Below, one piece after another: positions 1,625 through 31,342 of a stretch of DNA of 34,031 nucleotides. Every line of letters begins with the position of its first letter. The stretch's first letter is position 1. The DNA comes from Ruminococcus sp. (GTDB lineage Bacteria; Bacillota; Clostridia; Oscillospirales; Ruminococcaceae). The notes beneath the pieces were generated by a model. That model saw only the letters and a program-made list of their open reading frames with translations, did no database searches and was not told the origin of the DNA. Made by a program: the position numbers and the translations under genes. Where the stretch lies: contig JAAVHJ010000048.1 of NCBI GenBank assembly GCA_014799805.1, positions 1 through 34,031 of the forward strand. The letters run 5' to 3'.

Positions 1625-2467
1625 TTATTTGATGTCTTTTTTTTCAAAAATTCTTACGCCTGTCAAAAATGATAATGCGATTATCATACATGAAAATGCT
1701 ATCATTCTTGGCAGATGTTCTGCTGTTTGAAAATGTTGTGGATTTCTGAAAAAAATTTGATATGCTTGACCTGATGGTAAAACATCAAAAAAGATTTCAA
1801 GAAAATTGCGATAAATGCCTGTAGGATAATGCGGATTTTTGCCATATATTTCTGTAACGACACCATTTATGACAGGGAATTGATATGTTTCCGCAGGGAT
1901 AATCAAAAGAATACGAACTTGATTCGCAATAAATATTAAAACAAGCATAATAAAAGTTGTAAAAGCTGTACCAGCAGTTCGTTTGGGTATCATTGTCATC
2001 AACATGCAGTAGATGGAAATACATGCACAAACGCAAAGAATCCCACTGATAAAATATAATAGCAATAAGCCAAAATTTGTCTCAAATGCATCTAGTAAAA
2101 TACTTCCCAATAATAAAGCTGGTATCAGATATAATAAACATAATATAACACCAGCAATTATACAAGTCAAAAACTGTGCAGAATAAATATGCATTCTGAT
2201 ATGTCCAACAGATAATTTATTGCGTACTGTTCCGCCGTCATGTTCTTCACCACAAAATACGCAACAGATAAAAGCCATTATGATACATACAAAAATAACA
2301 TAGCCACCAATTACTTTATCTGCTTCTTGCAATTGTAAATATTTTATTTTTTCAGAGTAAATTGATATTGGTGTAAAAATTCCCAAAATCAGCATAACAA
2401 CTGCACTAAAAATAAATAAAATATTTTTTTTTAGTCTTGCCAAATTAGCAAGTAATAAATTACACAT
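1625..2467 (-). CDS. ABC-2 type transporter permease, antimicrobial-resistance type
   Basis: Integral membrane subunit of an ABC transporter. The 280 residues hold about six hydrophobic segments: an N-terminal one starting near residue 18, one near 60, then four between about 110 and 265. The stretch EEHDGGTVRNKLSVGH after the second segment resembles the cytoplasmic coupling region of ABC-2 permeases (EYExGTIRNKL type). The ATG at 2467 is chosen because GGGAGGTG lies 8 bases before it; a TTG at 2485 would place that ribosome site inside the gene. It overlaps the stop of the upstream ATPase gene by 8 bases, so the two are translationally coupled. It is the last gene of the operon headed by the two-component system, suggesting export of, or protection against, a cell-envelope-active peptide. 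The substrate cannot be told from sequence. Confidence 0.85.
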   Translation of the reverse strand: MCNLLLANLARLKKNILFIFSAVVMLILGIFTPISIYSEKIKYLQLQEADKVIGGYVIFVCIIMAFICCVFCGEEHDGGTVRNKLSVGHIRMHIYSAQFLTCIIAGVILCLLYLIPALLLGSILLDAFETNFGLLLLYFISGILCVCACISIYCMLMTMIPKRTAGTAFTTFIMLVLIFIANQVRILLIIPAETYQFPVINGVVTEIYGKNPHYPTGIYRNFLEIFFDVLPSGQAYQIFFRNPQHFQTAEHLPRMIAFSCMIIALSFLTGVRIFEKKDIK

Positions 2468-3374
2468 GTTCTGCACCTCCCACAAGAGAAATATAAAAGC
2501 TTTCTAAACTTTCATCATGCTCATTCATGGAAATAATTTCACAATTTTCTTTAGATAGTTCTATTGCAAACTGGGTGAAATTTAGCTTTGCATAGACATC
2601 AATTATATTCTTATCTAATATTTGATAAGAAATTGATTTTTTGTCTAGTAATCTTGTTAAAGCATTTGTATTAGTCACTGTCATTCTGACACATTTATAG
2701 CAGGAATTTTCAAGTTCTTTTGCACTCATTTCACGAATAATTCGACCTTTGTCAATAAATCCATAATGTGTTGCAAGTTTAGATAACTCATCAAGAATAT
2801 GACTAGAAATCAATACTGTGATATTTTTTTCATGATTTAATTTTAGAATCAATTCACGCATTTCAATAATACCTTGTGGGTCAAGTCCATTAATCGGCTC
2901 GTCCAATACTAAAAATTCAGAATTCCCACAAAGGGCAATTGCAATTCCTAAACGCTGTCGCATACCTAATGAAAAATTTCTAGCTTTTTTCTTTCCAGTG
3001 TTTTCTAATCCCACAAGCATTAGAATTTCTTGTAATCCGTCAAAATTGGATAAGCCTAAAATTTTATATTGTTGCTGTAAATTGTCTTCTGCTGTCATAT
3101 CAAGATAAATTGATGGTGTTTCTATCACAGCTCCCATTTTTCGGCGTGCTTTGGCAATTTCTTTGCTTGTATTTTTAATATTATATAGCTCAAATTCTCC
3201 GCTTGTGGGATATTGCAAACCGCATATTATGCGTATTAACGTAGTTTTGCCAGCTCCATTTTTTCCGATAAAGCCATAAATAGAGCCTTTCGGCACTTGC
3301 ATGGTTAAATTATCAAGTGCCTTGAACTGTTTGTATTTTTTACTAAGATTATTTATTTTTAAAATATATTCCAT
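2460..3374 (-). CDS. ABC transporter ATP-binding protein, BcrA/lantibiotic-immunity type
   Basis: Cytoplasmic ATPase that powers the permease encoded just downstream. Over 304 residues it shows Walker A GKNGAGKTT (37-45), the signature FSLGMRQR (134-141), Walker B FLVLDEP (154-160) with catalytic Glu159, and the H-loop as SSHILDEL. The FSLGM form of the signature and the roughly 80-residue C-terminal extension after the core are typical of BcrA, NukF and EpiF-like drug or lantibiotic exporters. The ribosome site AAAGGAAA precedes the ATG. It lies 45 bases after the small membrane protein gene and overlaps the permease gene. The family is secure; the antimicrobial role is inferred from this subfamily and from the two-component system in the same operon. 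Confidence 0.92.
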   Translation of the reverse strand: MEYILKINNLSKKYKQFKALDNLTMQVPKGSIYGFIGKNGAGKTTLIRIICGLQYPTSGEFELYNIKNTSKEIAKARRKMGAVIETPSIYLDMTAEDNLQQQYKILGLSNFDGLQEILMLVGLENTGKKKARNFSLGMRQRLGIAIALCGNSEFLVLDEPINGLDPQGIIEMRELILKLNHEKNITVLISSHILDELSKLATHYGFIDKGRIIREMSAKELENSCYKCVRMTVTNTNALTRLLDKKSISYQILDKNIIDVYAKLNFTQFAIELSKENCEIISMNEHDESLESFYISLVGGAEHV

Positions 3375-3419: not shown

Positions 3420-4028
3420 TTATAAGCACGTAAATAAAAATAATCCCGTATATGCAATAATTCCCAATATAGTCATCATACCAAAAGAAAATAAATTTTT
3501 AGATTTCATAGAATCTTGTTTATTAATTACAAAATATAATAAAATGCCAATTATGATTTTCATAATTACTGCTGGTATCATATGCGAATAGTCGGAAATA
3601 TGTATTAAATTTTCTATTCCCTCCGCAGTAAAAACAGCAGGCAGAAGATTTTTTGCATAATATTTTATTTTATGATTTTCTTGATTTGCAAAATAAGCAC
3701 CAATCCCAAAAATACTACCTGCTAAAATTGCCATGACTGTCCAAAGGTACACACCACTTGTAAAATCAAATGCATGGTTATTATGAATTGCTTCAGAAAT
3801 ATAATACCCATAAACACAGCCAAACAGACAATTTATAGTAATCAGCATAGAATATACTTGATTATTTTTTGAAAAAAAGCTGAATAAAAAAGCAGGAATT
3901 AGCCAAATAGCTCCTGAATTTGCTAAAAAATTCAAATTAACAGGCAGGACTGCTTGTCCTGCCAATGTTACTATGCCAACAAGGCAACCAATTATAATTG
4001 CTAATATATTTTTTTGAAACACTCGCAT
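3420..4028 (-). CDS. Small polytopic membrane protein, DUF6518-like
   Basis: A 202-residue protein with six or so hydrophobic segments (near 9-32, 37-52, 58-78, 93-113, 150-166 and 180-200) and no soluble domain. Length and layout recall the uncharacterised DUF6518 family, but that assignment is from memory and moderate at best. AAAGGAAAA lies just before the ATG, and the gene begins 13 bases after the histidine kinase stop, so it belongs to the same operon. Its place between the kinase and the ABC ATPase suggests an accessory of the sensor or transporter, but no function can be read from its residues. Confidence 0.75.
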   Translation of the reverse strand: MRVFQKNILAIIIGCLVGIVTLAGQAVLPVNLNFLANSGAIWLIPAFLFSFFSKNNQVYSMLITINCLFGCVYGYYISEAIHNNHAFDFTSGVYLWTVMAILAGSIFGIGAYFANQENHKIKYYAKNLLPAVFTAEGIENLIHISDYSHMIPAVIMKIIIGILLYFVINKQDSMKSKNLFSFGMMTILGIIAYTGLFLFTCL

Positions 4029-4041: not shown

Positions 4042-6765
4042 TTACTTCTCTAAATTTATTTGTTCTATTGCTTGATTTTCTGGGAGCTGAATTTTTACTT
4101 TGAATAAATCACCATCAATATATAAACTTAATTTTCCGCCTTGTAATTCGATAAAGCTTTGTGCAATGGACAAGCCTAAGCCACTGCCGTCAGTATTTCT
4201 TGACCTGTCACCACGGACGAATCGTTCCATTAAAGCATCTGCTGAAATATTTAACTGCACAGCTGAAATATTTCTTAGTGTAATAATAATTTCATGATTT
4301 TCAGGATAAGCATGCAAATAGACTCTTGTTTGAGGCATTGCATATTTACAAATATTGCCAAATAAATTATCCATAGCTCGCCATAATAACTTGCCATCTG
4401 CGGAAACAATTAAATTCTGTTCTGAAATTTCATTGATTAGCGTTAAATTTTTTGCTTCAAAACGTTCTGTATATTCGCCGATTAATTGCTCTAATAACAC
4501 TTTTATATCCATGATTTCTTTTTCTGTTTTCATAGTTCCAGCAGTTGCTTTTGAGGCTTCCAGCACATCTTCTGTTAATTTACGTAATCTTGCAGATTGT
4601 CTTTGTAAAACGCTAATATATTCAATCGCTTGTTTATCTGTGAGATTTAATTTTGATAACAAATCCGTATAATTAATGATAGAAGTTAATGGCGTGCGGA
4701 TATCATGGGATACATTGGCAATTAATTCTGTTTTGAACATTTCGCTTTTTAGTCTATCTGAAACAGCTTTGTTCATGCCGTCACCAATGCAATTCAAATT
4801 TTCTGCATGTTTCTTGAATACACTAAATAATCTTTCTAGTTTAATTTTTTCATCAAGCTTACCGTTTGCAAGATTCTGACCGCCGACTTCCAGCAAATGC
4901 AGTTGATACACAACAAAAATTGTCCCTGCAATGCCGACTGCCCAAAATAAAATTTTTAATAATAAACCAAATTCTATTCTATCCCAAATGAATATAACAC
5001 TGATAATATCTAATAGGACAACACCTGTTGCAACAAGTCCAGCTTTCCAGACAAATGGCAAATAATCTAATAATTTTGCTTTTTCTTTGACTTGTTCTTT
5101 TGCTTGCTTTGCTTTTTCACTGCTTTTTAGTAATTGCTTTTTCGTCAATCTAAAAATTTTATAAATAACAGTATTTTCTATAATTGTCTTTGTTCTAACA
5201 CGGGTTGCCGTACTCATTGCCCACCAAAGAATAATGATTGCCCATAATGGCAGTAAAATTCCAAATAGTAATATTTCATTTCCGATATTATCAACAGCAA
5301 TAAAACTAGCTACAATGCCTATACAACCAAGAATTGCTGTAAAAATATCATAGGGGATTTTATCAAAGCTTGTTGCAACAGCATATTCTGACCCTGTGCG
5401 ATACCCAGCAGAAGCAATCGCAAAGATAAAGCTTACGAAACATAAAATTGCTGCAAGAACGCCAATAATTGGGATAGCATAGCGATATTGATAGGCTAAC
5501 ATTGTATAATCTTGTGCAGTTTTATAACTATCAATTGCTTTTAATGGTTGGTTGACATAGCCGATAATATAATGTGTTGTAGTAGTGATTGGTTCAGAAA
5601 TGCGTACATCATAATAAATATCATAATATTGCGGTTCGTCTATATTATTATTATTATTACTATTATTATTATCTACAGGATAGGAATCCAGTGTAAATTC
5701 CTCAAAATATAATGCTGCATAATCTTGAATTGGAATAAAAGACGGTGGGTCATTATGATAATTAATCACATAATGCCAATCATCTTGCTTTATAATATAT
5801 AAATCTGGGTTTTGATTCAATACTGCTTGCAAATAATTTTGAAATAAAATATTTTCTTGTACACCAGTATCATTATTTTCAATCAAAAGATAGAAATTAT
5901 TATCTGTATAATGATAAGATATATTTAATGCATCACAAATTGCTTGCATTTCATCTATAGAATAATCAACTTCTACTGCAAGGGGTATATTTTCTGCATT
6001 GACTTGTATCGTAAGTGGGAATACATTTTCTAATAATGCATTTGATTCTGTCGTATCTGACATTTCTTGGATTGCAATATCTGTTGTATTAGGTTCTGTA
6101 ACTAATTCTGCCGTATCTGTTGTATCAGGTTCTGTAACTAATTCTGTAGTTTCTGGAATATTTGTAGTAGACGGAATTATTTCTGTAACTTCTGTTTCAG
6201 GAATCAATTCATTTTGCGAATTTGGAAGTGTCGGAGCTGGTTCACCTCTTGGCACAATCATTTGTGTTGCATTGATAACATATTCTCCCTCAAGTGTATT
6301 GCAAAATCTTTGATAGTCTGCTTCAGACATAATTTTTTCTGATTGCATATTTTCTGTTTCTTCATGAAAATAAGTCTGTGAAATTGGCGAATTATCAGAA
6401 CCAGATTTTATTAATAAATTATCGTCCATGTCATAAACTGCAAAAGAAAAATTTGTTTTATTATTCGCATAATTCTGCATAAATTCTTGGTATAATACTT
6501 CTTTTCGTTGCTTAGAAACAGTTTCATCAAAATAACCGTTTGTTTGCAATTGCATGAAATTTTCATTTAATAACCAAATATCACTTGATAATTTAGATTC
6601 AAAATTAGATTTTTGAATCTCGCTTAACTCTTTATAATAATAACCACCATTATATAATTCAAGTGTTCCAAGAATGCCTAAACAAGCAACGGGAATACTA
6701 ATTACATAAGCAAGTATTGCAAGCATTTTACAAATACTATTTTTGCGTAATGGCTTTTTTTTCAT
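4042..6765 (-). CDS. Sensor histidine kinase with very large extracytoplasmic domain
   Basis: Membrane sensor that should phosphorylate the response regulator encoded just upstream. The 907 residues fall into: a membrane anchor (about 12-35); an extracytoplasmic region of about 390 residues; about five membrane segments (429-455, 473-492, 498-517, 573-594, 600-621); a HisKA domain with phospho-acceptor His687 in ANVSHDIRTP; and a HATPase domain with an N-box (DNLFGNICKYA, near 799) and G-box GSGLGL (860-865). The extracytoplasmic part has two soluble blocks joined by a Thr/Glu/Pro linker with repeated ELVTEP units (about 195-240), plus an Asn-rich tract (366-374) encoded by an ATT-type triplet run. 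It starts with ATGA overlap on the regulator stop, behind GAGGTGG. The size and five-helix bundle are unusual; typical peptide-sensing kinases are far shorter. Confidence 0.92.
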   Translation of the reverse strand: MKKKPLRKNSICKMLAILAYVISIPVACLGILGTLELYNGGYYYKELSEIQKSNFESKLSSDIWLLNENFMQLQTNGYFDETVSKQRKEVLYQEFMQNYANNKTNFSFAVYDMDDNLLIKSGSDNSPISQTYFHEETENMQSEKIMSEADYQRFCNTLEGEYVINATQMIVPRGEPAPTLPNSQNELIPETEVTEIIPSTTNIPETTELVTEPDTTDTAELVTEPNTTDIAIQEMSDTTESNALLENVFPLTIQVNAENIPLAVEVDYSIDEMQAICDALNISYHYTDNNFYLLIENNDTGVQENILFQNYLQAVLNQNPDLYIIKQDDWHYVINYHNDPPSFIPIQDYAALYFEEFTLDSYPVDNNNSNNNNNIDEPQYYDIYYDVRISEPITTTTHYIIGYVNQPLKAIDSYKTAQDYTMLAYQYRYAIPIIGVLAAILCFVSFIFAIASAGYRTGSEYAVATSFDKIPYDIFTAILGCIGIVASFIAVDNIGNEILLFGILLPLWAIIILWWAMSTATRVRTKTIIENTVIYKIFRLTKKQLLKSSEKAKQAKEQVKEKAKLLDYLPFVWKAGLVATGVVLLDIISVIFIWDRIEFGLLLKILFWAVGIAGTIFVVYQLHLLEVGGQNLANGKLDEKIKLERLFSVFKKHAENLNCIGDGMNKAVSDRLKSEMFKTELIANVSHDIRTPLTSIINYTDLLSKLNLTDKQAIEYISVLQRQSARLRKLTEDVLEASKATAGTMKTEKEIMDIKVLLEQLIGEYTERFEAKNLTLINEISEQNLIVSADGKLLWRAMDNLFGNICKYAMPQTRVYLHAYPENHEIIITLRNISAVQLNISADALMERFVRGDRSRNTDGSGLGLSIAQSFIELQGGKLSLYIDGDLFKVKIQLPENQAIEQINLEK

Positions 6766-7469
6766 ATACTACCACCTCTTTCTAATTTATAGCCTTGTCC
6801 CCAAACAGCTTTTAAATATCTGGGTTCAGCTGGATTAATTTCAATTTTTTCACGCAAATGTCTGATATGCACAGCAATTGTCCCCTCTGCACCATAGGGC
6901 AGTTCCCCACGAATTGCTGTGTAAATTTCGCTTGGCGAAAAGACTTTATTCGGCGACTGCATGAGAAATAATAAAATTGCATATTCTGTTGGTGTTAAAT
7001 TCACTTGTTCGCCATCAATCGTGACAATTTTCTCTGAATTATCTAAAAAAATATTTCCGCATTGATATTGCGTGGAAGAAACAGGTGCAACACTGCCTAA
7101 TTTTGTATAGCGTCTTAACTGAGATTTTACTCTGGCAAGCACTTCCATAGGGTTAAACGGTTTTGTAATATAATCATCAGCCCCCAAATTCAAACCTAAA
7201 ATTTTATCTGTATCTTCGCTTTTTGCAGTAAGCAAAATAACAGGCAAATTATATTGCTCTCTTAACTTGGTCATTGCTTCAATTCCGTCCATTTCGGGCA
7301 TCATAATATCCAGTAATAATAAATCAATTTTTTCTTGTTTTAAAATTTCCAGTGCCTCCTTCCCATTGTAAGCAACATGCAGAATATAATTATTTTCCTG
7401 TGAGAGATAAATTTTTAACGCATTGACAATGTCTTTTTCATCATCGCATATTAAAATATCATAAGCCAT
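6762..7469 (-). CDS. OmpR/PhoB-family response regulator
   Basis: DNA-binding partner of the histidine kinase. The 235 residues contain a receiver domain with the acidic pair at 9-10, phosphorylated Asp54 in LLLLDIMMPEMDG, Thr81 and Lys103 (ITKPF), followed by a winged-helix domain from about 135 with the usual LTPTEYAILLFLM and VHIRHLREKIE segments. It resembles VanR-like regulators. It is the first gene of the operon, and its stop overlaps the kinase start (ATGA). A promoter with phased TTTAAGA repeats lies directly upstream, suggesting autoregulation. The same repeats occur before the second ABC operon near 30.1 kb, so this protein is the best candidate for binding both. Confidence 0.95.
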   Translation of the reverse strand: MAYDILICDDEKDIVNALKIYLSQENNYILHVAYNGKEALEILKQEKIDLLLLDIMMPEMDGIEAMTKLREQYNLPVILLTAKSEDTDKILGLNLGADDYITKPFNPMEVLARVKSQLRRYTKLGSVAPVSSTQYQCGNIFLDNSEKIVTIDGEQVNLTPTEYAILLFLMQSPNKVFSPSEIYTAIRGELPYGAEGTIAVHIRHLREKIEINPAEPRYLKAVWGQGYKLERGGSI

Positions 7470-7518: not shown

Positions 7519-7578
7519 TATTATACACGATATTTGTTTAAGAAACAAGGTGCAAAATGTTTAAGAATTGTTTAAGAT
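7519..7578 (-). promoter_or_regulatory. Promoter of the two-component operon with phased TTTAAGA repeats
   Basis: Read on the minus strand: -10 TATAAT (7519-7524) and a -35-like TTGTTT (7543-7548), spacing 18. On the plus strand TTTAAGA occurs at 7537, 7560 and 7571, spaced 23 and 11 bases apart, as expected for direct-repeat sites of OmpR-family regulators. The block 7560-7578 (TTTAAGAATTGTTTAAGAT) is repeated exactly at 30184-30202. Its use as the operator of the adjacent regulator is inferred. Confidence 0.65.
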
Positions 7579-7580
7579 AT

Positions 7581-7622
7581 AAAAAAATAAATCTGGCAAA
7601 ATTAATCTGCCAGATTTATTTC
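7581..7622 (-). terminator. Intrinsic terminator of the transglutaminase-like lipoprotein gene
   Basis: On the minus strand AAATAAATCTGGCA pairs with TGCCAGATTTATTT and is followed by a run of T. The 5' arm overlaps the stop codon at 7602. It separates this gene from the two-component promoter just downstream. Confidence 0.85.
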
Positions 7623-9011: not shown

Positions 9012-10235
9012 GTGAATATTGCAGTTGCCCAATCTGGAGGGCCTACCTGTGCAATTAATGCAAGTTTGGTAGGCGTTTTCAAGCAAGGATTATTAACAAA
9101 AGAAATTGATGCAATTTTTGGGTCTATTAATGGCATTGAGGGCATGATTCATGATAAATTATTAAATTTAAAAAGCGTGATTCGGACGAATGAAGATATG
9201 GAATTGTTACGCCAAACACCATCAACTATGTTAGGGTCATGTCGTTATAAATTGCCAAATTATGAAGAAAATCCTGATATTTATGAAAAAATTCTGCATA
9301 CGTTTGAAATTCATAGAATTGGTGTATTTATTTATATTGGTGGTAATGATTCCATGGATACGGTTGTTAAATTATCAGCTTATCTGAAACAAATTGGTTC
9401 TGATGTGAAAATTATTGGTGTGCCTAAAACAATTGATAATGATTTACCTATCACTGACCACACACCAGGTTTTGGTTCAGCGTCTAAATATGTTGCTACG
9501 ACAGTACAAGAAATTATTCGGGATAGCTGTGTATATAGTTTGCCGTCTGTCACGATAATTGAAATTATGGGAAGAAATAGCGGTTGGTTGACAGCGTCAA
9601 CTTGTATGTTACGTGCCAATGGAGAAGAAGCACCACATTTAATTTATTTACCAGAAACTAATTTTTCAGCAGAAAAATTTATTGAAGATGTAAAAAAAGA
9701 AATGGCTAAGCATAAAGCTGTCATTATTGCTGTTTCAGAGGGTGTGAATTTTGAAACTGAAAATTCAGGAATAGAGGATTTTCAATCAGGTGCAGTAGAT
9801 AATTTCGGACATAAATACTTGTCTGGTATTGGAAAATTTTTAGAGCGTTTCGTTGCAGATAGAATTGGCTGTAAAGTGCGTTCAATTGAATTAAATGTCA
9901 TGCAAAGATGTTCTTCGCATATTTGTTCTAAAACAGATATTGACGAAGCAGAACGTATTGGCAGACATGCACTGAAAACAGCTCTTAATGGCGAAACTGG
10001 AAAAATGATGTATTTTAAGCGTATAAGTGATATGCCCTATGCAGTCACAATTGAAATGACAGATGCTGTAAATGTTGCGAATTTAGAAAAGAAATTCCCC
10101 AAAGAATGGATTTCACCCGAACAAAATCAAGTAACAGATACGGCAATTAGTTATTTTTTGCCATTAATTCAGGGGAAAGTTGATATTTACAGAAAAAATG
10201 GCTTGCCTGTGCATTTTAAAAGACCGTTGCGGTGA
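9012..10235 (+). CDS. 6-phosphofructokinase, probably pyrophosphate-dependent
   Basis: Phosphorylates fructose 6-phosphate in glycolysis. The 407-residue protein starts AVAQSGGPT, has GGNDS at 110-114 and PKTIDND at 138-144 with the catalytic Asp142. Compared with ATP-using PfkA, the Gly of GGDGS is replaced by Asp113 and the Gly of PGTIDND by Lys139. These two substitutions are the known marks of PPi-dependent enzymes. The start is GTG behind an excellent GGGAGGA; no ATG fits. Its stop overlaps the weak ribosome site of the first LRR gene, whose ATG is 7 bases on, so the LRR genes are likely coupled to it. PPi specificity is an inference from residues. Confidence 0.93.
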   Translation: MNIAVAQSGGPTCAINASLVGVFKQGLLTKEIDAIFGSINGIEGMIHDKLLNLKSVIRTNEDMELLRQTPSTMLGSCRYKLPNYEENPDIYEKILHTFEIHRIGVFIYIGGNDSMDTVVKLSAYLKQIGSDVKIIGVPKTIDNDLPITDHTPGFGSASKYVATTVQEIIRDSCVYSLPSVTIIEIMGRNSGWLTASTCMLRANGEEAPHLIYLPETNFSAEKFIEDVKKEMAKHKAVIIAVSEGVNFETENSGIEDFQSGAVDNFGHKYLSGIGKFLERFVADRIGCKVRSIELNVMQRCSSHICSKTDIDEAERIGRHALKTALNGETGKMMYFKRISDMPYAVTIEMTDAVNVANLEKKFPKEWISPEQNQVTDTAISYFLPLIQGKVDIYRKNGLPVHFKRPLR

Positions 10236-10242
10236 TAATATT

Positions 10243-11196
10243 ATGAGTTTAAAAGAAAAAATTCTTGCACAGTTGGGAATTTTTAAGAAAACAACAGACG
10301 GATTGCAATATTATAGGCAAGATAATGAGGTTTATATTGTGGGATATAAAGGCTCAAAAAAGCAAGTGTTTCATGAAATACCAGCCTATATAGAAGATTG
10401 TCCTGTTGTGTCACTTAAAAATTTGCAGAAAATGCCTCTTGTAGGTGAAATTAGGATTCCTGATACTATCCGTGAAATTGGTGACATGTGTTTTGAATTC
10501 CAAAAAAAAGTGACTAAATTTGTGATTCCAAATAGTGTAGAATCTATTGGAGAACATGCATTTGAATTTTGTGATATTCTGGAAGAAATCGTATTTCCTG
10601 ATCATTTAAAATTATTACCTATAGGAATATGTTCAGAAAATCCAAAATTGAAAAAAATTCACTTGCCTGAAAGTTTACAGGAAATTTCAGATTGTTTTGC
10701 TGGAGATTGTAGCTCTCTGGAAGAAATTATTATCCCTGAATCTGTGAAAATCATTCGTGAATTAGCATTTAATGATTGCAAAAATTTAAAAAATATTTAT
10801 TTACCAGAAAATTTAGAAGAAATTTCAGATTATTTTTTGAGTGGTTGTGATTCTTTGGAAGAAATGATAATTCCTGAACATGTTAAAATCATTGGAAAAT
10901 CTGCATTTGGTTTCTGTAAAAATTTAAAAACTGTGAAGTTGCCAGAAATTTTAGAAGAAATTCCAGATGATTTTATGAACGGTTGTGATTCTCTGGAAGA
11001 AATCATAATTCCCGAACATGTTAAAATGATTGGAAAATCCGCATTTTGTTTATGTAAAAATTTAACAAGTGTGAAATTACCTGAAAATTTGGAATTAATT
11101 AAAAAACATGCTTTTGCGGATTGTCCAAAATTAAAGACAGAAAATATTAATATTCCCGTCAACTGCGAAGTTAAGACAAAAGCATTTGATAATTAA
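10243..11196 (+). CDS. Leucine-rich-repeat protein, BspA/LRR_5 type, copy 1 (expanded)
   Basis: A 317-residue protein of BspA-like leucine-rich repeats built from 23-residue units of the form LEEIIIPxxVKxIGxxAFxxC. It lacks a signal peptide and membrane segments, so it is probably cytoplasmic, unlike the classic secreted BspA proteins. The first 90 residues form a distinct conserved head shared with the next gene. The ATG at 10243 matches the start of that paralogue; an earlier in-frame start at 10180 would overlap the phosphofructokinase gene by 56 bases. Residues 159-296 are three 46-residue units in tandem; the paralogue has only one. The role is unknown; such repeats usually bind other proteins. 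Confidence 0.85.
   Translation: MSLKEKILAQLGIFKKTTDGLQYYRQDNEVYIVGYKGSKKQVFHEIPAYIEDCPVVSLKNLQKMPLVGEIRIPDTIREIGDMCFEFQKKVTKFVIPNSVESIGEHAFEFCDILEEIVFPDHLKLLPIGICSENPKLKKIHLPESLQEISDCFAGDCSSLEEIIIPESVKIIRELAFNDCKNLKNIYLPENLEEISDYFLSGCDSLEEMIIPEHVKIIGKSAFGFCKNLKTVKLPEILEEIPDDFMNGCDSLEEIIIPEHVKMIGKSAFCLCKNLTSVKLPENLELIKKHAFADCPKLKTENINIPVNCEVKTKAFDN
10717..11130 (+). repeat. Three tandem 138-bp LRR coding units
   Basis: Units start at 10717, 10855 and 10993, each beginning with the codons for LEE(I/M)IIPE and each 138 bases (46 codons) long. The first two end with the same GCDS-type residues; the third diverges at its end into the C-terminal cap. The paralogue at 11218 has one such unit. After allowing for a 4-residue insertion in that protein, the length difference is exactly 92 residues, or two units. 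Confidence 0.85.
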
Positions 11197-11217
11197 ATTA
11201 ATACTTGAGGTAATGCT

Positions 11218-11907
11218 ATGAGTTTTAAAGAAAAAATATTAGCACAGTTGGGAATTTTTAAGAAAACGCCAGAGGGCTTGCAATATTATATGCAAGATAA
11301 TGAAGTATATATTGTGGGATATAAAGACTCGAAAAAACAAGTATTTCATGAAATACCAGCCTATATAGAAGATTGTCCTGTTGTGTCGATTAGAAATTTG
11401 CAGGGAAATTTGCAGGAAATGCCCCTTGTAGGAGAAATTAGAATTCCTGATACTGTCCGTGAAATTTATGACCTGTGTTTTGCATTTCAAAAACAAGTGA
11501 CAAAATTTTTGATTCCAGATAGTGTGGAATCGATTGGAGAACAAGCATTTGAATTTTGTGATATTCTGGAAGAAATTATATTTCCTGATAATTTGAAATT
11601 ATTGCTTCTAGGTGTATGTTCAGAAAATCCAAAATTAAAAACCATTCACTTGCCTGAAAGTTTAGAAGAAATTCCAGACTGTTTTGCTGGAGGGTGTAGC
11701 TCTCTGGAAAAAATAATTATCCCTGAATCTGTGAAAATCATTGGTGAATTAGCATTTTATGACTGCGAAAATTTAAAAACTGTTAAATTACCAGAAAATT
11801 TAAAATTAGTTAAGAAATATGCTTTTGCGACTTGTCCAGAATTAAAACCAGAAAATATTATCATTCCAGCAGGTTGTGAAGTTCACCCCGAAGCATTTGA
11901 TAATTGA
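11218..11907 (+). CDS. Leucine-rich-repeat protein, BspA/LRR_5 type, copy 2
   Basis: A close paralogue of the preceding gene, 229 residues. The head (MSFKEKILAQLGIFKKT onward) is nearly identical, apart from a 4-residue duplication giving NLQGNLQEMP. The repeat region carries one 46-residue unit instead of three and ends in the same cap with PEAFDN. The ATG follows TTGAGGT. It starts 21 bases after copy 1, and its stop merges with the ribosome site of copy 3. There is no signal peptide. The similarity of both DNA and protein points to a recent local duplication. Function unknown. Confidence 0.85.
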   Translation: MSFKEKILAQLGIFKKTPEGLQYYMQDNEVYIVGYKDSKKQVFHEIPAYIEDCPVVSIRNLQGNLQEMPLVGEIRIPDTVREIYDLCFAFQKQVTKFLIPDSVESIGEQAFEFCDILEEIIFPDNLKLLLLGVCSENPKLKTIHLPESLEEIPDCFAGGCSSLEKIIIPESVKIIGELAFYDCENLKTVKLPENLKLVKKYAFATCPELKPENIIIPAGCEVHPEAFDN

Positions 11908-11916
11908 GGAAATGAT

Positions 11917-12591
11917 ATGATTAGTTTGAAAAAATTTAAAAAGAATTTTTATAATTATCGTAAAAATTCTAAAATTACACCTGATGGTTTTCAGTATGTG
12001 ATTGAAAATCAGGAAGTATTTATCAGAGGTTTTAAAAAAGGCAATCCTGTTGAAATTCCAGCCTATATTGAAAATTGTCCTGTTGTTTATCTTGCAGGAT
12101 TGCATAATTTACCGTTATCTGGAGAAGTGAAAATTCCTGATACAGTAAGAGAATTAGAATGGGCTGTTTTTAATGTACAAGCTTATGCGACAAAATTTAT
12201 TTTGCCGGAGAATATCAAACAAATTGACGAACATGCTTTTGCTTGGTGCAAGGCATTAGAAGAAATTGTCTTTCCAGATTCTGTGATAAATTTAGGCTTA
12301 GGCACTGTCATGAGCTGCAAAAAATTAAAAACAATTCAATTGCCAAAAAATTTAGAATTGATACCAGATTATTTTGCAAGTGGCTGTACAGCTCTTGAAA
12401 AAATTGAAATTCCCGAACATGTGACTAGTATTGGCGAAATGGCTTTTAATGAGTGTGCTAATTTAACAAGTATTGTTTTACCTGAAAATTTAAAATTAAT
12501 TAAAAAATATGCATTTGCAGGTTGTTCTAAATTAAAATATCCTGTGATACCTGAACATTGTGAAGTGCATCCGAAAGCATTTCATGCATAG
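11917..12591 (+). CDS. Leucine-rich-repeat protein, BspA/LRR_5 type, copy 3 (diverged)
   Basis: The third and most diverged paralogue, 224 residues, with the same plan: a basic head, the conserved segment IPAYIENCPVV, IPDTVRELE, then repeats and the cap CEVHPKAFHA. The basic start (KKFKKNFYNYRKNSK) differs from the heads of copies 1 and 2. TGAGGA lies just before the ATG and overlaps the stop of copy 2 (9-base gap), so translation is probably coupled. It has no signal peptide or membrane helix. It is the last gene of the unit and is followed by a terminator. Function unknown. Confidence 0.83.
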   Translation: MISLKKFKKNFYNYRKNSKITPDGFQYVIENQEVFIRGFKKGNPVEIPAYIENCPVVYLAGLHNLPLSGEVKIPDTVRELEWAVFNVQAYATKFILPENIKQIDEHAFAWCKALEEIVFPDSVINLGLGTVMSCKKLKTIQLPKNLELIPDYFASGCTALEKIEIPEHVTSIGEMAFNECANLTSIVLPENLKLIKKYAFAGCSKLKYPVIPEHCEVHPKAFHA

Positions 12592-12633: not shown

Positions 12634-12739
12634 CACATGTGGAAAAAATTATTTTTTTTACCAAAAATAAAATTTTTGTCCAATATTTTTGGATTTCTGT
12701 TGTTATAGAAATAGAAACCTACTTGCAAGGAGGAACGGA

Positions 12740-13297
12740 ATGGAGAACGGTATTCAAAGTTACGTCCGTTTTCTGAAAGGTGAACAATCAGAACTTAGAG
12801 TGATTATTCAATTATACTGGGATAGTATGCTATTATTTACCAATGGCTATGTTCATAATTTATCAGATGCAGAAGATATTGCACAAGAGGCATTTATTAA
12901 ATTATCAATTAAGCGTCCGAAATTAGTACATGAAAATCAACTCAAAGCGTATCTGTTTAAAATATGCCGTAATATGGCAATTAATTATTTAAAAAAGCAA
13001 AAACGGCATATCGGAATGTCACAAGAATTAACGGAAAATATAGAAGATGAATTGCAAGAAGTAGAATCCCGCATGGAGCTGAAAGATTCTAAACGGCAAT
13101 TACATCATGCAATGCAAAAATTAAAAACAGAATATCGGGAAATTTTATATTTAAGATATTTTGAACAGCTTACTATGCAGGAATGTGCAAAAATCATGAA
13201 ATGTTCAGAGAAACAAGCAACTGCAATTAGTTATCAGGCTCGGCAACAGCTCCGCAAAATTTTAGAAAAGGAGGGGTTTTCCATTGAAAACATATGA
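12740..13297 (+). CDS. RNA polymerase sigma factor, ECF/sigma-70 family
   Basis: A 185-residue alternative sigma factor. Region 2 contains DAEDIAQEAFIKL and the melting segment KAYLFKICRNMAINYLKK; region 4 (about 125-175) contains LKTEYREILYLRYFEQLTMQE and a helix-turn-helix with ISYQARQQLRKIL. There is no region 3, which fits the ECF group. The ATG at 12740 follows AAGGAGGA; the frame stays open upstream to 12689 but without a ribosome site. Its stop lies inside the next gene, which encodes a single-pass membrane protein, the usual arrangement of sigma and anti-sigma pairs. The secreted pectate lyase downstream is a plausible target, but I could not identify a common promoter sequence. Confidence 0.92.
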   Translation: MENGIQSYVRFLKGEQSELRVIIQLYWDSMLLFTNGYVHNLSDAEDIAQEAFIKLSIKRPKLVHENQLKAYLFKICRNMAINYLKKQKRHIGMSQELTENIEDELQEVESRMELKDSKRQLHHAMQKLKTEYREILYLRYFEQLTMQECAKIMKCSEKQATAISYQARQQLRKILEKEGFSIENI

Positions 13298-14279
13298 TGA
13301 AGTATTTGAAAATGTAATAAATGCCAGAAATGCACATCGCCGTAAAGTCAAAAGAATTCAGAATGCTGTTTCTGTGTCTATGATTTGTGCCGTTTGTATT
13401 GTAGGCTCTTCTATGTATTTGAAACTTGAAGAACCTGAGATTGTCCCTCCTCAAAGAGAAACAACAACAATGACGACAACAGCGGTCATTCATGAAACAA
13501 TAGAAACCTCTAATTCTAATACAGATATGTTCAGTGAAGAACCGACAGAATTTATTTATACAAGTAATAATTTAAATACGATTCCTCAAGAGATAAGCTC
13601 CAGTATTTCTGATTCTGAAATAAATCACACAGAAAACATAAACAGCACTTTACATTCGCAAGAAAGCATATCTACTGCAAATACAGCAGAAAATATCATT
13701 ACTTATCCAGAAGAAATCACAAATACTGTAATTAGTTCTGAAGATATTACTAGCAGTACGTATTCTACAACCAAAAAGCCAGTCACTACGCATACAGAAA
13801 CAAATACAATTACTTCTATAACAAATCCAACTACTACAACAAAACCTCCAGAACTAACAACCCCTCCAATAAATCCAGAACCACCAGAAACTCCAGAACC
13901 ATCATACCCAGCCACATCAGAGACAGAACCAGATCTAACAGACCCCATAGTAACAACAGGAATAACAGCTCCAACAGAAACATTATTGTGGACAACTGCT
14001 ACTTTAAACACAGCAACAGCACAAACAACAGCTTTAGAGTGGACAACAGCTTTAGGTGAAACAACAACTACAGAAACAACCACCACAGAAACAACAACTA
14101 CTACTACTACTACAATAGTAGATATTTTTGATTTTGATGAAAATATTATAATAACAGATAATTTAGAAATACCCTTAGAGGCTATGAATCATATCACTGT
14201 GATTGAAATAGATATTTATATTGATACAAATCTTTCTGACAGACAAACAGTTACAGAAGTGATTTGTGATATTTCATAA
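13284..14279 (+). CDS. Single-pass membrane protein with Thr-rich external region, probable anti-sigma partner
   Basis: Of 331 residues, the first 24 are basic and cytoplasmic, residues 27-46 form one membrane helix, and about 230 residues outside are Thr/Ser/Pro/Glu-rich and look like a cell-wall-spanning linker, ending in a run of Thr. A more ordered tail of about 50 residues (from VDIFDFDENI) closes it. It starts with TTG at 13284 behind AAGGAGGGG and overlaps the sigma gene by 14 bases. No zinc-binding anti-sigma motif is visible, so the anti-sigma role rests on position, coupling and topology. By analogy with SigI/RsgI pairs in cellulosome producers, the outer part could sense the wall or polysaccharide, but no carbohydrate-binding domain is recognisable. 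Confidence 0.7.
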   Translation: MKTYDEVFENVINARNAHRRKVKRIQNAVSVSMICAVCIVGSSMYLKLEEPEIVPPQRETTTMTTTAVIHETIETSNSNTDMFSEEPTEFIYTSNNLNTIPQEISSSISDSEINHTENINSTLHSQESISTANTAENIITYPEEITNTVISSEDITSSTYSTTKKPVTTHTETNTITSITNPTTTTKPPELTTPPINPEPPETPEPSYPATSETEPDLTDPIVTTGITAPTETLLWTTATLNTATAQTTALEWTTALGETTTTETTTTETTTTTTTTIVDIFDFDENIIITDNLEIPLEAMNHITVIEIDIYIDTNLSDRQTVTEVICDIS

Positions 14280-26972: not shown

Positions 26973-27587
26973 TTATTTGAGTAACTCAATCGTTTTTGTT
27001 GCATAAGAAACAAGCGAAATATCATGTGTTACCATAATAATTGTTTTTCCCTGCTGATTAAATTTTTTTAAAATTTCCATTACTTGAATCGCATTATTTT
27101 TATCAAGAGAGCCTGTTGGTTCATCAGCAAAAATAATATCACATTTTTTGTAAAGCAAGCGTGCAAGTGCCACTCTTTGCTGTTCTCCACCAGAAAGCGT
27201 ATATACATATTGATTGATTTTATCAGCTAATCCGACCGCTTGTAAAGCATTTTCAATTGATATATGATTTCTGCTTTTTTTGCCGATAATATTCAAATTT
27301 TCTTTTACAGTTTTATTTTCTACCAGTCCATAATTCTGAAATAAAAAACCGACATTATCACGCAGATATTTCAACTGATTTTTTCGCTTTGTAATATCTA
27401 TGCCATTTACTAAAATTTCTCCACTGTCAATTTTTTCTAGTGAACCCATCATATTCATCAAAGTTGTCTTTCCACAACCGCTATTGCCTGTAATCATAAC
27501 AAATTCATTGTCGTTTATAATTAAATTATAATTTTCAAATAAAACATGTTGACCAAATTTTTTGCTTATATTTTTTAATTCTATCAT
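26973..27587 (-). CDS. ABC transporter ATPase, bacteriocin-export/lactococcin-972-associated type
   Basis: A 204-residue ATPase of the MacB/LolD size class. It has Walker A GNSGCGKTT (34-42), signature LSGGEQQR (131-138), Walker B IIFADEP (151-157) and an H-loop in MVTHD. It overlaps the permease gene by an ATGA start/stop. Together with a permease of about 650 residues, this matches the ATPase that accompanies lactococcin-972-like loci (TIGR03608 type), as I recall that family. The substrate is unknown. The operon's promoter carries the same phased repeats as the two-component operon. Confidence 0.9.
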   Translation of the reverse strand: MIELKNISKKFGQHVLFENYNLIINDNEFVMITGNSGCGKTTLMNMMGSLEKIDSGEILVNGIDITKRKNQLKYLRDNVGFLFQNYGLVENKTVKENLNIIGKKSRNHISIENALQAVGLADKINQYVYTLSGGEQQRVALARLLYKKCDIIFADEPTGSLDKNNAIQVMEILKKFNQQGKTIIMVTHDISLVSYATKTIELLK

Positions 27588-29542
27588 GAAAAACCTCCTT
27601 TTAATACAGCAAGTACTTTTTTATGTTCTGTTTGCAAAATAAAAAATAGAATTGCCAACAAATCTAATAACATAAGACTCACACCTAATATTAGAACAAA
27701 ATAAAAATTACTATGAATTAAATTGCAGACTACTAAAATTGAAATTGCATAAATCGCAATTAGAAATATAATTTGTTTTTTATATTTGCTAATCATTCCA
27801 GAACCAAAAGCACGTTTTAAGCAATATTCTTTTCTATGCAAGCGATAATCAAAAGCTATCATTTGATATGACATGATAATTTCTAAAAATAATAATACTA
27901 ATACAATAAATAGTAATATTAGTAATTCTTTTTTAGATGTTTCAATCATGTATAAAATATTATCTTTTAGACAATATGATAGATAATTCAGATTATTTTT
28001 TGAATGAATTTCAGTTTCAAATTCGTTATTTTTATGAATTGCCAAAGCTGGCATATCTAAACGCTTTTCATAATTAGTACTGGATTTTTCAGGTGGCATA
28101 TTATCCAGAATCACATATGGATTATCAGCAATACTTATTAAATTTTCAGGATTGGAGCTGAAACAACAAATTTTTATTGTATTATCATTATCATAATAAA
28201 TAATTTTTTCAGAATAATTTTCTGCTGTGTTATAATTTTTCAAAAATGTTCGCAGACTATCAATTCTATTATTAGAATTATTTTGATTTTTAGGTAAAAA
28301 ATAAATCAAATCGGAATTTTCTGTTTTATCAATATAATCTGAAAAAATAGAGAAAATATAATCTTTTGCATTGCCATTACAATAAATTTGTTCTATCTCA
28401 ATATTATTATCTGAAGCATAATGCCTGTCCAATATGGTAATATCACATGCTTGATAATATCGGCTATATAAATCATTTATGGCAATTCTATTTGCATAGC
28501 TTTGTGCAAGTGTATCATCTAGTGCAAGAATCTCTTCTGGAACTTTACTAAAATCTTGGTTTGAAATTCTAATAATATCATAATCAAGATATTTTTTCAT
28601 TTGTGAGTTTGCATTGTAAGAATCTATGAAAGATTTTGACGCATACGAAACAGAAACAACTACACCAAGCAACATACAAGTAATAATTAATTTAAAAATT
28701 TTGCTTAACATAACAATTTTTTCAAGTAATTTATTTTCATGGGAGATTAATTTTAAATTAAATTTCAGATAAGAAAAATATGGCATAACACAAGTTAAAA
28801 TAATTAAAATACTATATGAAATTATTTTTTTATTAATAATAATAAAAAATATTTTTTGCATGAAAAAAATTGAAATAAATGCAATTGGCACTATAAGAGC
28901 TAAATCAGCAAGAATAGATTTTAACATAATTAAAGCTGGTGAATGCCCATAGCAAATAGCAATCATTTTTTCTCTTTTCAGAATGCTAACTTGATAATAA
29001 TTAACAAATAATAAAAATAATGCAATTACTAACCATAAAATATTCACTGGTTTCACACAATCTTCTGGATAACTTGTAATATAAGAATTTAAGCTATATA
29101 AATTAGCATGTTGTTCTAATTCCTTAATAAATTTTGAAATGTTATTTTCATCGCCTTTTACCCTAAAATAAATAGTTTCGTCTATCTCATGCAAATCTGA
29201 TAATTTATTTTCATTTATTTGAATTGTTCCCAGAAAAATGCTTTTTAATTTTTTAGGGACAGCATATTGAAAACAGGTATTCAAAGGCTGGTTCTCAAAA
29301 ATATCATAAACTGTAATATTTTGTTCTGAAATTTTTTGTTTATTTGCATAGACAAGAACATTATTTTTTTCTGATAACTTTTCTAAAATCTCAACTATAT
29401 CATCTGTTATCGAATTATCAAAATGAAAACTCCAGTCATTCATTTGCAATTCACTTGTAAAATATTTTACTTGGAGTTCATTTGTTAATAATAAGGCAAT
29501 TGTCATACAAATTAAAAAAAATATATATTTCATAATTTTCAT
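27584..29542 (-). CDS. Bacteriocin-associated integral membrane protein, ABC permease-like
   Basis: A 652-residue membrane protein. One helix (5-20) is followed by an external domain of about 140 residues, then helices near 166-184, 205-228, 231-258 and 282-302, a second external domain of about 235 residues (305-540), and three final helices (540-562, 591-609, 614-637). Length and layout match the bact_immun_7tm/DUF1430 family (about 650 residues, about seven helices) found with lactococcin-972-like bacteriocins and possibly acting in immunity or export. It is paired with the ATPase downstream. GGTGGTGAT lies before the ATG at 29542. The function is inferred from family context. Confidence 0.82.
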   Translation of the reverse strand: MKIMKYIFFLICMTIALLLTNELQVKYFTSELQMNDWSFHFDNSITDDIVEILEKLSEKNNVLVYANKQKISEQNITVYDIFENQPLNTCFQYAVPKKLKSIFLGTIQINENKLSDLHEIDETIYFRVKGDENNISKFIKELEQHANLYSLNSYITSYPEDCVKPVNILWLVIALFLLFVNYYQVSILKREKMIAICYGHSPALIMLKSILADLALIVPIAFISIFFMQKIFFIIINKKIISYSILIILTCVMPYFSYLKFNLKLISHENKLLEKIVMLSKIFKLIITCMLLGVVVSVSYASKSFIDSYNANSQMKKYLDYDIIRISNQDFSKVPEEILALDDTLAQSYANRIAINDLYSRYYQACDITILDRHYASDNNIEIEQIYCNGNAKDYIFSIFSDYIDKTENSDLIYFLPKNQNNSNNRIDSLRTFLKNYNTAENYSEKIIYYDNDNTIKICCFSSNPENLISIADNPYVILDNMPPEKSSTNYEKRLDMPALAIHKNNEFETEIHSKNNLNYLSYCLKDNILYMIETSKKELLILLFIVLVLLFLEIIMSYQMIAFDYRLHRKEYCLKRAFGSGMISKYKKQIIFLIAIYAISILVVCNLIHSNFYFVLILGVSLMLLDLLAILFFILQTEHKKVLAVLKGGFS

Positions 29543-29560
29543 AGCATATCACCACCAATA

Positions 29561-30088
29561 TTAATCAGATAAAAAATATTCATTAGCTACTTTCATTACT
29601 TCATTCAGTAAATCTTTTACTTCTGAATTATTTAATATTTCCTCTGGACTCATTCTATAATTTTTGATAATTTCTTGATTTTCATTTATATCAAAAGTAT
29701 ACCACTCTGTACCATTTTCTGTATTGTCTTGAATTTGAATTTGAAAATCCATTTCTTTAAATAAATGCGGTTTAATTGTAAGTGTTACATCATAATTTTT
29801 GACATAACCTGAATTTTCAGTATTGAAATATAATGCATTAGAAATACAATAATTTCCAGTAAATTTTAAATATTTTGGAAAAAATATTCCTACATTGCAA
29901 TCATCAATAGATTTTCTTTCTGGTTTCAAATCATATATATTAAAATTTATTTTCTCACAGTTTGGATTATTTTTCACCACCTTTACAAAGTAATTGTATC
30001 TGTAAGTAACCCAGATTAAATTTAAAGCTAAGAAAATCACAGCTACAAAAGATAAAATAATACTTAATCTACTTTTTTTCTTTTTCAT
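29561..30088 (-). CDS. Membrane-anchored protein of unknown function, first gene of ABC operon
   Basis: A 175-residue protein with a basic start (KKKKSR), one hydrophobic helix (about 9-27) and an external domain of about 145 residues that I do not recognise. It holds repeated Tyr/Phe-rich segments such as YLKFTGNYCISNAL. The ATG at 30088 is chosen because AAAGGAAG lies just before it; the longer in-frame start at 30106 places that site inside the gene. It begins the operon with the bacteriocin-type permease, where a lactococcin-972-like precursor would usually sit, but it lacks that family's small size and Trp-rich tail. It could be an accessory lipoprotein-like binding protein or a diverged effector. 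Confidence 0.75.
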   Translation of the reverse strand: MKKKKSRLSIILSFVAVIFLALNLIWVTYRYNYFVKVVKNNPNCEKINFNIYDLKPERKSIDDCNVGIFFPKYLKFTGNYCISNALYFNTENSGYVKNYDVTLTIKPHLFKEMDFQIQIQDNTENGTEWYTFDINENQEIIKNYRMSPEEILNNSEVKDLLNEVMKVANEYFLSD

Positions 30089-30133
30089 GATATATCTTCC
30101 TTTCATATTTTAGTATTTTTAGTTTGTAATATT

Positions 30134-30202
30134 ATCATAGCATATTATTTCTAATTTGTAAATTAAGAACAGATTAAGCTATTTTTAAGAATTGTTTAAG
30201 AT
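30134..30202 (-). promoter_or_regulatory. Promoter and four phased TTAAG repeats of the bacteriocin-type ABC operon
   Basis: Minus strand: -35 TTTACA (30157-30162), 17-base spacer, -10 TATGAT (30134-30139). Reading the plus strand, (A/T)TTAAG(A/C) occurs at 30162, 30173, 30184 and 30195, exactly 11 bases apart, running upstream from the -35 box. The last two lie within TTTAAGAATTGTTTAAGAT, identical to 7560-7578. This suits activation by an OmpR-family regulator, most likely the one at 6762-7469. Confidence 0.7.
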
Positions 30203-30221: not shown

Positions 30222-30262
30222 AAAACAAAAAAGCCCTGAAACGGATTTCAGAGCTTTTTTAT
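30222..30262 (-). terminator. Intrinsic terminator of nadA-mnmA
   Basis: On the minus strand AAAAAAGCTCTGAAA pairs with TTTCAGGGCTTTTTT around CCG, with one mismatch, directly after the mnmA stop at 30263. Confidence 0.88.
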
Positions 30263-31342
30263 TTATAAACTGCAAATTGTTCCGCCACCAACAACAATAT
30301 CATCTTGATATAAGACAACAGCTTGTCCTTTGGTAATTGCCCTTTGTGGACTGTCAAATTTCACATGTAAAAAACCGTTTTCATCTTGCCATGCAGTCGC
30401 TGGCTGTTCAGGGTGTCTATATCTGATTTTTGCACAGACATGAATTGGCTTTTCTAAACTCGCAACAGAAATTAAATTTACATCATCAGCAATTAGCGAA
30501 TCAGAAAATAATTCCTGATTTTGTCCAAGTACAACCTGATTGGTATCTGTTTTAATTTCGCAAACATATAAAGGCGTTTTTGCAGAAATGCCTAATCCTT
30601 TGCGTTGTCCAATCGTATAATGCACAATGCCTTTATGCTGTCCTAAAATATTGCCTTGTGTGTCAATAAAATCACCTGTTGTAAATTGCTTCCCTGTGAA
30701 TCGTTCTAAAAATTTCGCATAATCACCATCTGGCACAAAACAAATATCTTGACTATCTTTTTTATGTGCATTTACGAAATTATTTTGTTCTGCAATTTGT
30801 CTGATTTCTGATTTGTGATAATCTCCCAACGGAAACCGAACATGCTGTAATTGTTCTTGTGTGAGTGCATATAATACATAGCTTTGGTCTTTGGATTCAT
30901 CAAGACCTTTTTTTAGTAAATATCTTCCAGATTTCGTGTCAAATTCCGTTCTGGCATAATGTCCTGTGACAACATAATCAAATTGCATTTGATGCATTCT
31001 TTGTATCATGGCATCAAATTTCAGAAATCTATTACAGTCAATACAAGGATTTGGTGTTGCACCTTTTTCATAGCAATTTGCAAAACGATTCATAACAGTT
31101 TCTTTAAATTGTTCTGAAAAATTAAACACATAATGCAACATATTTAATTTACTGGAAACTAATTTTGCGTCCATGACATCACTGAGAGAACAACAAGATT
31201 TTTCTTTTGCAATGCCTGCATCTTCATTATGAAATAACTGCATCGTTGCACCGACACATTCGTAGCCAGCTTTTAGCATAAGCAATGCCGCAACAGAACT
31301 ATCTACACCACCACTCATGGCAATGATTGCTTTTTCTTTCAT
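30263..31342 (-). CDS. mnmA: tRNA-specific 2-thiouridylase MnmA
   Basis: Adds sulfur to uridine 34 of Lys, Glu and Gln tRNAs. The 359 residues have the PP-loop SGGVDSSV (10-17), the catalytic cysteines Cys100 (PNPCIDC) and Cys201 (QDICFVPD), and GHYAR at 127-131, all as expected. The ribosome site GGAGG is encoded by the last codons of nadA, and the gene starts 9 bases after the nadA stop, so the two are one unit. It is the only gene here related to tRNA modification. Confidence 0.97.
   Translation of the reverse strand: MKEKAIIAMSGGVDSSVAALLMLKAGYECVGATMQLFHNEDAGIAKEKSCCSLSDVMDAKLVSSKLNMLHYVFNFSEQFKETVMNRFANCYEKGATPNPCIDCNRFLKFDAMIQRMHQMQFDYVVTGHYARTEFDTKSGRYLLKKGLDESKDQSYVLYALTQEQLQHVRFPLGDYHKSEIRQIAEQNNFVNAHKKDSQDICFVPDGDYAKFLERFTGKQFTTGDFIDTQGNILGQHKGIVHYTIGQRKGLGISAKTPLYVCEIKTDTNQVVLGQNQELFSDSLIADDVNLISVASLEKPIHVCAKIRYRHPEQPATAWQDENGFLHVKFDSPQRAITKGQAVVLYQDDIVVGGGTICSL

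Follow-up and report, generated by a model that had tools for sequence, protein, structure and literature searches.

A TTAAG direct repeat with an 11-bp period as the probable operator of a VanR-like two-component system and a small set of envelope genes in Ruminococcus sp.

Does a short sequence shared by two distant operons of Ruminococcus sp. mark a common operator, and which regulator would read it? We analysed a stretch of 34,031 bases (the window), in which the 19-mer TTTAAGAATTGTTTAAGAT occurs at 7560-7578 and again at 30184-30202. An exact search of both strands of the window found no third copy, in agreement with the first-pass annotation that had pointed out the pair. Both copies have the same orientation and lie just 5' of minus-strand operons, and the sequence identity around them ends at the bounds of the 19-mer. 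The repeat as such is weak evidence: in 19 of 100 dinucleotide-shuffled versions of this AT-rich sequence (31% G+C), one or more 19-mers were exactly repeated (mean 0.32, maximum 3), and the bare identity was therefore rejected as evidence by itself. The real window contains 70 repeated 19-mers, and those other than the present pair belong to two paralogous genes (10267-11742), to an internal repeat of the kinase gene (6091/6127) and to a 20-bp inverted repeat between two distant places (17969 and 20492). Nor was the 17-mer pattern enriched in the window when up to two mismatches were allowed, with 10 matches against an expected 17.4. The case for the 19-mer is carried by its placement and by comparative data.

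The two promoters are both read on the minus strand, and their box positions are numbered from the -10 element. In the promoter of the two-component operon, the putative 19-bp operator core (7560..7578) consists of two CTTAA boxes 11 bp apart, at 7576-7572 and 7565-7561, starting at -63 and -52. The -35 element TTGTTT (7543..7548), placed by sequence and by promoter alignment, is separated by 17 bp from the -10 element TATAAT (7520..7525). A third CTTAA box (7538..7542, starting at -29), which is partly conserved in the genus, lies between the -35 and the -10. On the plus strand, the TTAAG units start at 7538, 7561 and 7572, so that the third unit is 23 rather than 22 bp from the next one and is not in strict phase. 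A consensus promoter scan did not list this promoter, the -35 of which has only three consensus letters. Just upstream of the 19-mer lies an intrinsic-terminator-like hairpin (7584..7622) belonging to the preceding gene, and the two-component operon therefore probably has its own promoter.

The ABC-operon promoter, which the same scan did find, carries an array of four CTTAA boxes (30163..30200) at exact 11-bp spacing, starting at -40, -51, -62 and -73; the corresponding TTAAG units start at 30163, 30174, 30185 and 30196, and all four are perfect. The innermost box adjoins the -35 element TTTACA (30157..30162), which is followed after 17 bp by the -10 element TATGAT (30134..30139), with TG before it. 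The second exact copy of the 19-mer (30184..30202) covers the two outer boxes, at -73 and -62. Here too a terminator-like hairpin of the upstream gene (30223..30264) lies just upstream of the 19-mer, so this operon also probably starts with its own promoter. At both sites the half-sites are arranged head to tail, about one turn apart, near a promoter and with an 11-bp period, as expected of OmpR-type direct repeats. Thus, the first-pass description of TTAAG units 11 bp apart beside the promoter, in the same orientation relative to a minus-strand operon, agrees with both loci. Its distances of 41 and 52 bases from the regulator's -10 are right if measured from the gene-side edge (7520), and its 39 and 50 for the ABC operon must be corrected: the pair at 40 and 51 from 30134 is formed by the middle boxes (30174 and 30185), and the exact 19-mer, at 51 and 62, is more distant by one helical turn. 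The matching distances thus set the boxes of the regulator against the two middle boxes of the ABC array, not the two 19-mers against each other.

The regulator (6762..7469, minus strand, 235 aa) contains a receiver domain (PF00072, 109.8 bits) and a Trans_reg_C winged helix (PF00486, 80.1 bits), the domain pair of the OmpR/PhoB family. Its best curated family is VanR-ABDEGLN (NCBIfam, 249.4 bits); as this is below the cut-off of 350, we call it VanR-like, not VanR. It is followed on the same strand by a 907-aa sensor kinase with a VanS-like catalytic part (4042..6765; 145.3 bits, cut-off 400). Gene spacing suggests that the operon probably also includes a DUF6518 membrane protein (3420..4028), an ABC ATPase whose best NCBIfam match is of the lantibiotic-protection type (2460..3374; 227.7 bits, cut-off 309.75) and an ABC-2 type permease (1625..2485). 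The ABC operon, also on the minus strand, begins with a 181-aa protein (29561..30106; a start at 30088 is also possible), which had a hydrophobic N-terminal stretch by eye and gave no family match. It continues with a DUF1430 permease (27584..29542; weak match to a bacteriocin-associated integral membrane protein, 33.3 bits, cut-off 189.35) and a lactococcin-972-exporter-like ABC ATPase (26973..27587; 229.9 bits, cut-off 254.85). All NCBIfam matches named for the two operons are under their cut-offs, and a Pfam scan of nine window proteins showed no vanHAX-like gene. N-terminal to its catalytic domains, the kinase carries a long region with Thr-rich linkers; its gene also has an internal 36-bp repeat, to which the repeated 19-mers at 6091/6127 belong. 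Elsewhere in the window, inspection by eye suggested three tandem leucine-rich-repeat-like genes (10180-12591), two of which share many exact 19-mers, and, at 12689-17043, genes for a sigma-factor-like protein, a protein rich in Ser and Thr and a secreted protein of 876 aa with a dockerin-like C-terminal end.

The regulator was found in 23 of 38 genomes of the genus, its own included. We examined 21 of these 23 loci, leaving out the own genome and one locus with 63 bp of upstream sequence. TTAAG-N6-TTAAG (at most one mismatch, same orientation, within 250 bp upstream) was present in 20 of the 21 promoters and exact in 11, against a dinucleotide-shuffle expectation of 0.54 (maximum 4). The sole promoter without it, in G035, has the site with two mismatches. 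The gap was specific: a gap of 6 gave 20 of 21, a gap of 5 gave five, and gaps of 3, 4, 7, 8, 9 and 10 gave none or one. In an alignment of 21 promoters at the -10, a set that now included our own but neither the locus with 63 bp of upstream sequence nor another that was badly anchored, the boxes were moderately distinct from the spacers; the letters of the second box were kept at 76-100%, and some boxes were shifted by one base. The anchoring favoured a TTG 23 bp before the -10, so the constancy of the -35 TTG in this alignment is partly built in.

Beyond the genus, 77 of the best 80 relatives listed could be scored, three having too little upstream sequence. The pair (at most one mismatch, either orientation) was present in 22 of the 29 relatives with 60-69% identity, in 11 of the 24 with 50-59% and in six of the 24 with 37-49%, where 1.1, 0.8 and 0.9, respectively, were expected. 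The boxes were kept also in relatives whose upstream region has 50-56% G+C. In five Bacillaceae-type records (L089, L090, L091, L093 and L102) the pair reads [AC]TTAAG-N5-CTTAAG, and its orientation is ambiguous because the CTTAAG unit is palindromic. Ten relatives were searched whole for exact TTAAG-N6-TTAAGA. In two of them (G189 and G191) the assembly-wide matches, one and two, were all in the regulator's own promoter; the other eight had none to eight matches, with none in G185, where the regulator's own site carries a mismatch. In our own genome, 11 OmpR-type regulators were found, and this one alone has TTTAAG-N5-TTTAAG with at most one mismatch within 250 bp upstream. Self-control of the VanR-like regulator, as the first-pass annotation had proposed, is thus a well-supported prediction, because its site is kept in the genus and often beyond it, and provides the sole exact sites in two relatives.

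A search of the whole genome with the 19-mer, allowing up to three mismatches, gave ten matches, of which two were exact, two had one mismatch and six had three; no match had two. The reversed control gave 17. The four near-exact copies, which lie before the regulator, the ABC operon and two VanZ-like units, are all located before genes and next to a -35/-10 pair. On contig C67, a single-mismatch copy precedes a VanZ gene of 208 aa (PF04892, 96.7 bits, cut-off 30.1). On contig C3, the other single-mismatch copy lies between divergent genes, with an 81-aa ORF on one side and, on the other, a 143-aa ORF followed by a VanZ gene of 217 aa (PF04892, 88.0 bits, same cut-off). The 143-aa ORF (L255:2487-2918), which separates operator and VanZ gene in our own genome, belongs to no family. 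G027 (L370), with a regulator of 98% identity, showed no such ORF at the corresponding position, and its C3-type array lies directly before the VanZ gene. The C67-type sites have the opposite orientation to those of the regulator, the ABC operon and C3. By eye, the ABC, C3, G027 and G024 promoters share a layout in which CTTAA abuts the -35, with 17 bp to the -10.

Six VanZ matches were found in our own genome. For the genus, 72 of 81 VanZ rows were scanned, nine weaker or fragmentary rows being left out; three of the 72 were too short to score, and 70 were placed in a tree. The VanZ subfamily of these sites takes up seven of the 70 tree rows (support 86/83) and was found only in regulator-positive genomes. 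Four of its seven members have a site within 250 bp (at most one mismatch). Among the rest, our own C3 member has its site before the extra ORF, and the G030 gene starts near a contig end, a matching array ending another contig with codons resembling the start of the gene; the G035 member has no site within 250 bp at one mismatch. In G024, an array precedes a VanZ gene of another subfamily. Taken over all VanZ genes, a site within 250 bp was found for 5 of 51 scorable genes in regulator-positive and 0 of 18 in regulator-negative genomes, a difference that was not significant (p = 0.32). Across the 38 genomes, exact arrays of three boxes were seen only in two overlapping rows at the ABC promoter and before a single VanZ gene in each of G027 and G029; allowing one mismatch gave 25 rows, against 69 for the reversed control. 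Raw pattern counts showed no enrichment (reversed control versus pattern, 5 versus 4, 197 versus 35, 13 versus 7 and 69 versus 25).

The small dispersed regulon of the first-pass annotation is therefore supported: the self-site is conserved, and the genome has only four near-exact 19-mers, the two outside the window leading to VanZ-like genes. The link from the regulator to the ABC operon is one that we infer from promoter architecture, which suggests that this operon would be a target. It is the least secure member of the candidate regulon, because the DUF1430 permease, used as a probe in a 148-genome family sample with few congeners, had relatives in two other genomes, at 20-25% identity. 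Two further groups of sites were observed. In five genomes that hold the regulator (L256:1034-1050, L360, L363, L364 and L365), a gene for a carbohydrate-type ABC permease is preceded by a TTGACA and, a few bases before that, by a TTAAG array, whose first unit is GTAAG in four of the five; this group is possibly a further part of the regulon. In four genomes, TTAAG pairs lie between a lipoprotein gene and a divergent gene for a secreted protein (L254:1238-1256, L159, L172 and L199), which in our own genome has a ricin-type lectin and a dockerin; the others have similar N-termini by eye.

The motif itself is not new, because its core is a published operator. According to the available text on CiaR of the streptococcal CiaRH system, its direct-repeat consensus is NTTAAG-N5-TTTAAG (PMC3091779), the same core string as at the two window sites, which match it exactly. 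In the promoter search described there, the -10 was placed ten bp after the repeat (PMC3091779). The window sites differ from this geometry. Neither site (7561 and 30185) has a TATAAT-like hexamer (at most two mismatches) at the 10-bp distance; instead, a -35 and then the -10 follow on the opposite side of the repeat. The CiaR repeat would thus seem to stand in place of a -35, as far as that text describes it, whereas the window sites lie upstream of a complete -35/-10 pair. The proteins differ as well: the window regulator is VanR-like, and, aligned by eye, its recognition-helix segment has TIAVHIRHLREKI, not CiaR's VVEVYVSKVRKKL.

Sites of the CiaR kind are nevertheless common in the genus. 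We listed TTAAG-N{2,8}-TTTAAG in 24 of the 38 genomes (G000-G023), ten of which lack the regulator at E 1e-60, some being incomplete assemblies. A gap of 5 accounted for 102 of the 150 matches listed, and each other gap for 1 to 14. The context was read for 99 of the 102 gap-5 rows, all but an overlapping row from the ABC array and two from G023; six of the 99 lay inside an ORF according to a crude ORF picker. A TATAAT exactly 10 bp downstream was present at 75 of the 99 sites when up to one mismatch was allowed and at 84 when up to two were. Sites with this CiaR-type -10 occur in genomes both with and without the window's regulator. The 15 sites that lack it at two mismatches, both window sites included, are all in regulator-positive genomes (15 of 62 sites versus 0 of 37 in negative genomes). 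After removal of the regulator's own promoters, the contrast was 10 of 57 versus 0 of 37 at two mismatches (p = 0.006), 8 of 57 versus 0 of 37 at three (p = 0.02) and 12 of 57 versus 7 of 37 at one (p = 1). The cut-off was set after seeing the data, and the contrast holds at two or three mismatches, not at one or none; we used it as supporting evidence only. The window sites are assigned to the VanR-like regulator mainly because that regulator's own promoter keeps the boxes far outside the genus and holds the only exact sites in two relatives. A genome-wide count of TTTAAGNNNNNTTTAAG was rejected as a regulon list, since it mixes two site classes and the reversed control is equal or commoner.

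The CiaR-type sites form an apparent regulon outside streptococci (G000:C37:7317-7333, L001; G000:C35:4126-4142, L024; and 82 further sites among those listed). In our own genome they lie before a dockerin protein and before a gene pair encoding a VTC-domain protein and a DUF4956 protein; in the other genomes, by eye, they precede the same gene kinds and short proteins reading MEQAKLDRINELAKKAK. A rough peptide query detected a second regulator, encoded in our own genome at C3:27929 (L046/L260), in 33 of 38 genomes. By eye its recognition segment is CiaR-like, the C-terminal segment being NIEVYISFLRKKL; among curated families it scores best against RppA (217.7 bits, cut-off 250).

Could this second regulator, rather than the VanR-like one, read the window sites, so that both window operons would be targets of its system? 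The core equals the CiaR consensus, many sites in the genus have a -10 at the CiaR distance, and the available text gives VVEVYVSKVRKKL as the CiaR helix (PMC3091779) to compare with NIEVYISFLRKKL. In addition, G007 and G013 have such a site some 60-65 bp before the gene of this regulator, and at one mismatch the site classes are alike in regulator-positive and regulator-negative genomes. We nevertheless consider this reading improbable: the CiaR-like label was given by eye to a protein that is closest to RppA, the window sites lack the CiaR promoter geometry, and the VanR-like promoter keeps its boxes outside the genus, where the assemblies of two relatives contain no exact match besides them and so show no trace of a CiaR-type regulon. 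It is likewise unlikely that one CiaR-type regulon comprises all the sites; the class contrast argues against it, but only at cut-offs of two or three mismatches. That both regulators read the sites, with promoter geometry deciding the main reader, is a more tenable alternative, yet still a doubtful one. Both site classes of one genome share the half-site and the 11-bp spacing, which would permit such cross-talk, but the four 19-mer sites of our own genome have a common spacer and flank, TTAAGAATTRTTTAAGAT, that its two CiaR-type sites do not have, a hint of separate specificity.

The sites might also be identical by chance in an AT-rich genome, or form an AT-rich UP-element without a specific binder, and the frequency of repeated 19-mers in the shuffled windows and the raw counts that do not exceed their reversed controls are what such an origin would give. 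Against this, both boxes and gap are conserved in orthologous promoters, even where the upstream G+C is 50-56%, and every near-exact 19-mer lies before a gene and next to a -35/-10 pair; chance is already disfavoured for the regulator promoter, and overall we regard it as very unlikely. At even odds, in our estimate, stands the broader proposal that the genus has two independent regulons, one VanR-like and one CiaR-like, which use the same TTAAG half-site and 11-bp period and are separated, or deliberately coupled, by promoter geometry and spacer letters. The geometries in question would be a repeat 10 bp from the -10 in one regulon and, in the other, arrays that precede a full -35/-10 pair and often lie on the opposite strand.

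We therefore favour the reading, at a probability of roughly three in four, that the 19-mer is the operator of the VanR-like regulator (6762-7469), which would activate its own operon and a small set of envelope genes; the regulatory proposal of the first-pass annotation is supported and enlarged. In this model, the phosphorylated regulator would bind TTAAG half-sites head to tail, one helical turn (11 bp) apart, at positions upstream of, or abutting, the -35 element. Activation, rather than repression, is suggested because the sites lie upstream of a full -35/-10 pair. The regulator would most likely activate its own operon, and further the DUF1430 ABC exporter (26973-30088) and the two VanZ-like genes elsewhere in the genome. 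Its sensor kinase would probably report envelope or antimicrobial-peptide stress. As judged from family names, the VanZ-like proteins, the DUF1430 exporter and the lantibiotic-protection-type ABC transporter point to defence against cell-envelope-active compounds, making this a probable envelope-stress regulon.

The closest named relative of both the regulator (249.4 bits) and the catalytic part of the kinase (145.3 bits) is the VanRS system of glycopeptide resistance, in which VanZ-family genes are partners, as they probably are here. The window system differs from VanRS in that its proteins score below the NCBIfam cut-offs (350 and 400 bits) and that no vanHAX-like gene accompanies them among the nine window proteins scanned. 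A literature search found no description of an enterococcal VanR operator to set beside the window sites, nor any site description for VanZ with response-regulator direct repeats, for VanZ/VanR regulons or for CiaR in Ruminococcus; upstream of two Enterococcus VanR-like genes (L112 and L114), no TTAAG pair was seen by eye. Outside the streptococci, BAS0540 of the Bacillus anthracis pair BAS0540-BAS0541 is an OmpR-family regulator reported, in the available text, to bind TTTAAGNNNNNTTTAAG before its own operon and a few others (PMC4938410). It is described there as CiaR-like in its DNA-binding domain, and its targets differ from those of the window regulator (PMC4938410). For RR_1586 of Clostridioides difficile, another OmpR-family regulator, the available text reports TTAAG-containing repeats among predicted sites and binding upstream of its own operon (PMC6222199); it differs from the window regulator in motif details and targets, and is described as involved in sporulation (PMC6222199).

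These results provide a candidate operator and a first target list, namely the regulator itself, an ABC exporter and VanZ-like proteins, for a VanR-like system that is found in many Clostridia and some Bacilli genomes among the matches listed. They also extend the range of the CiaR-type operator core far beyond streptococci and to genes of more than one kind; to separate the regulators, regulon predictions from TTTAAG-N5-TTTAAG therefore need promoter geometry. For this Ruminococcus, a shared tag placed once per helix turn suggests a small cell-envelope defence regulon built of known kinds of parts.
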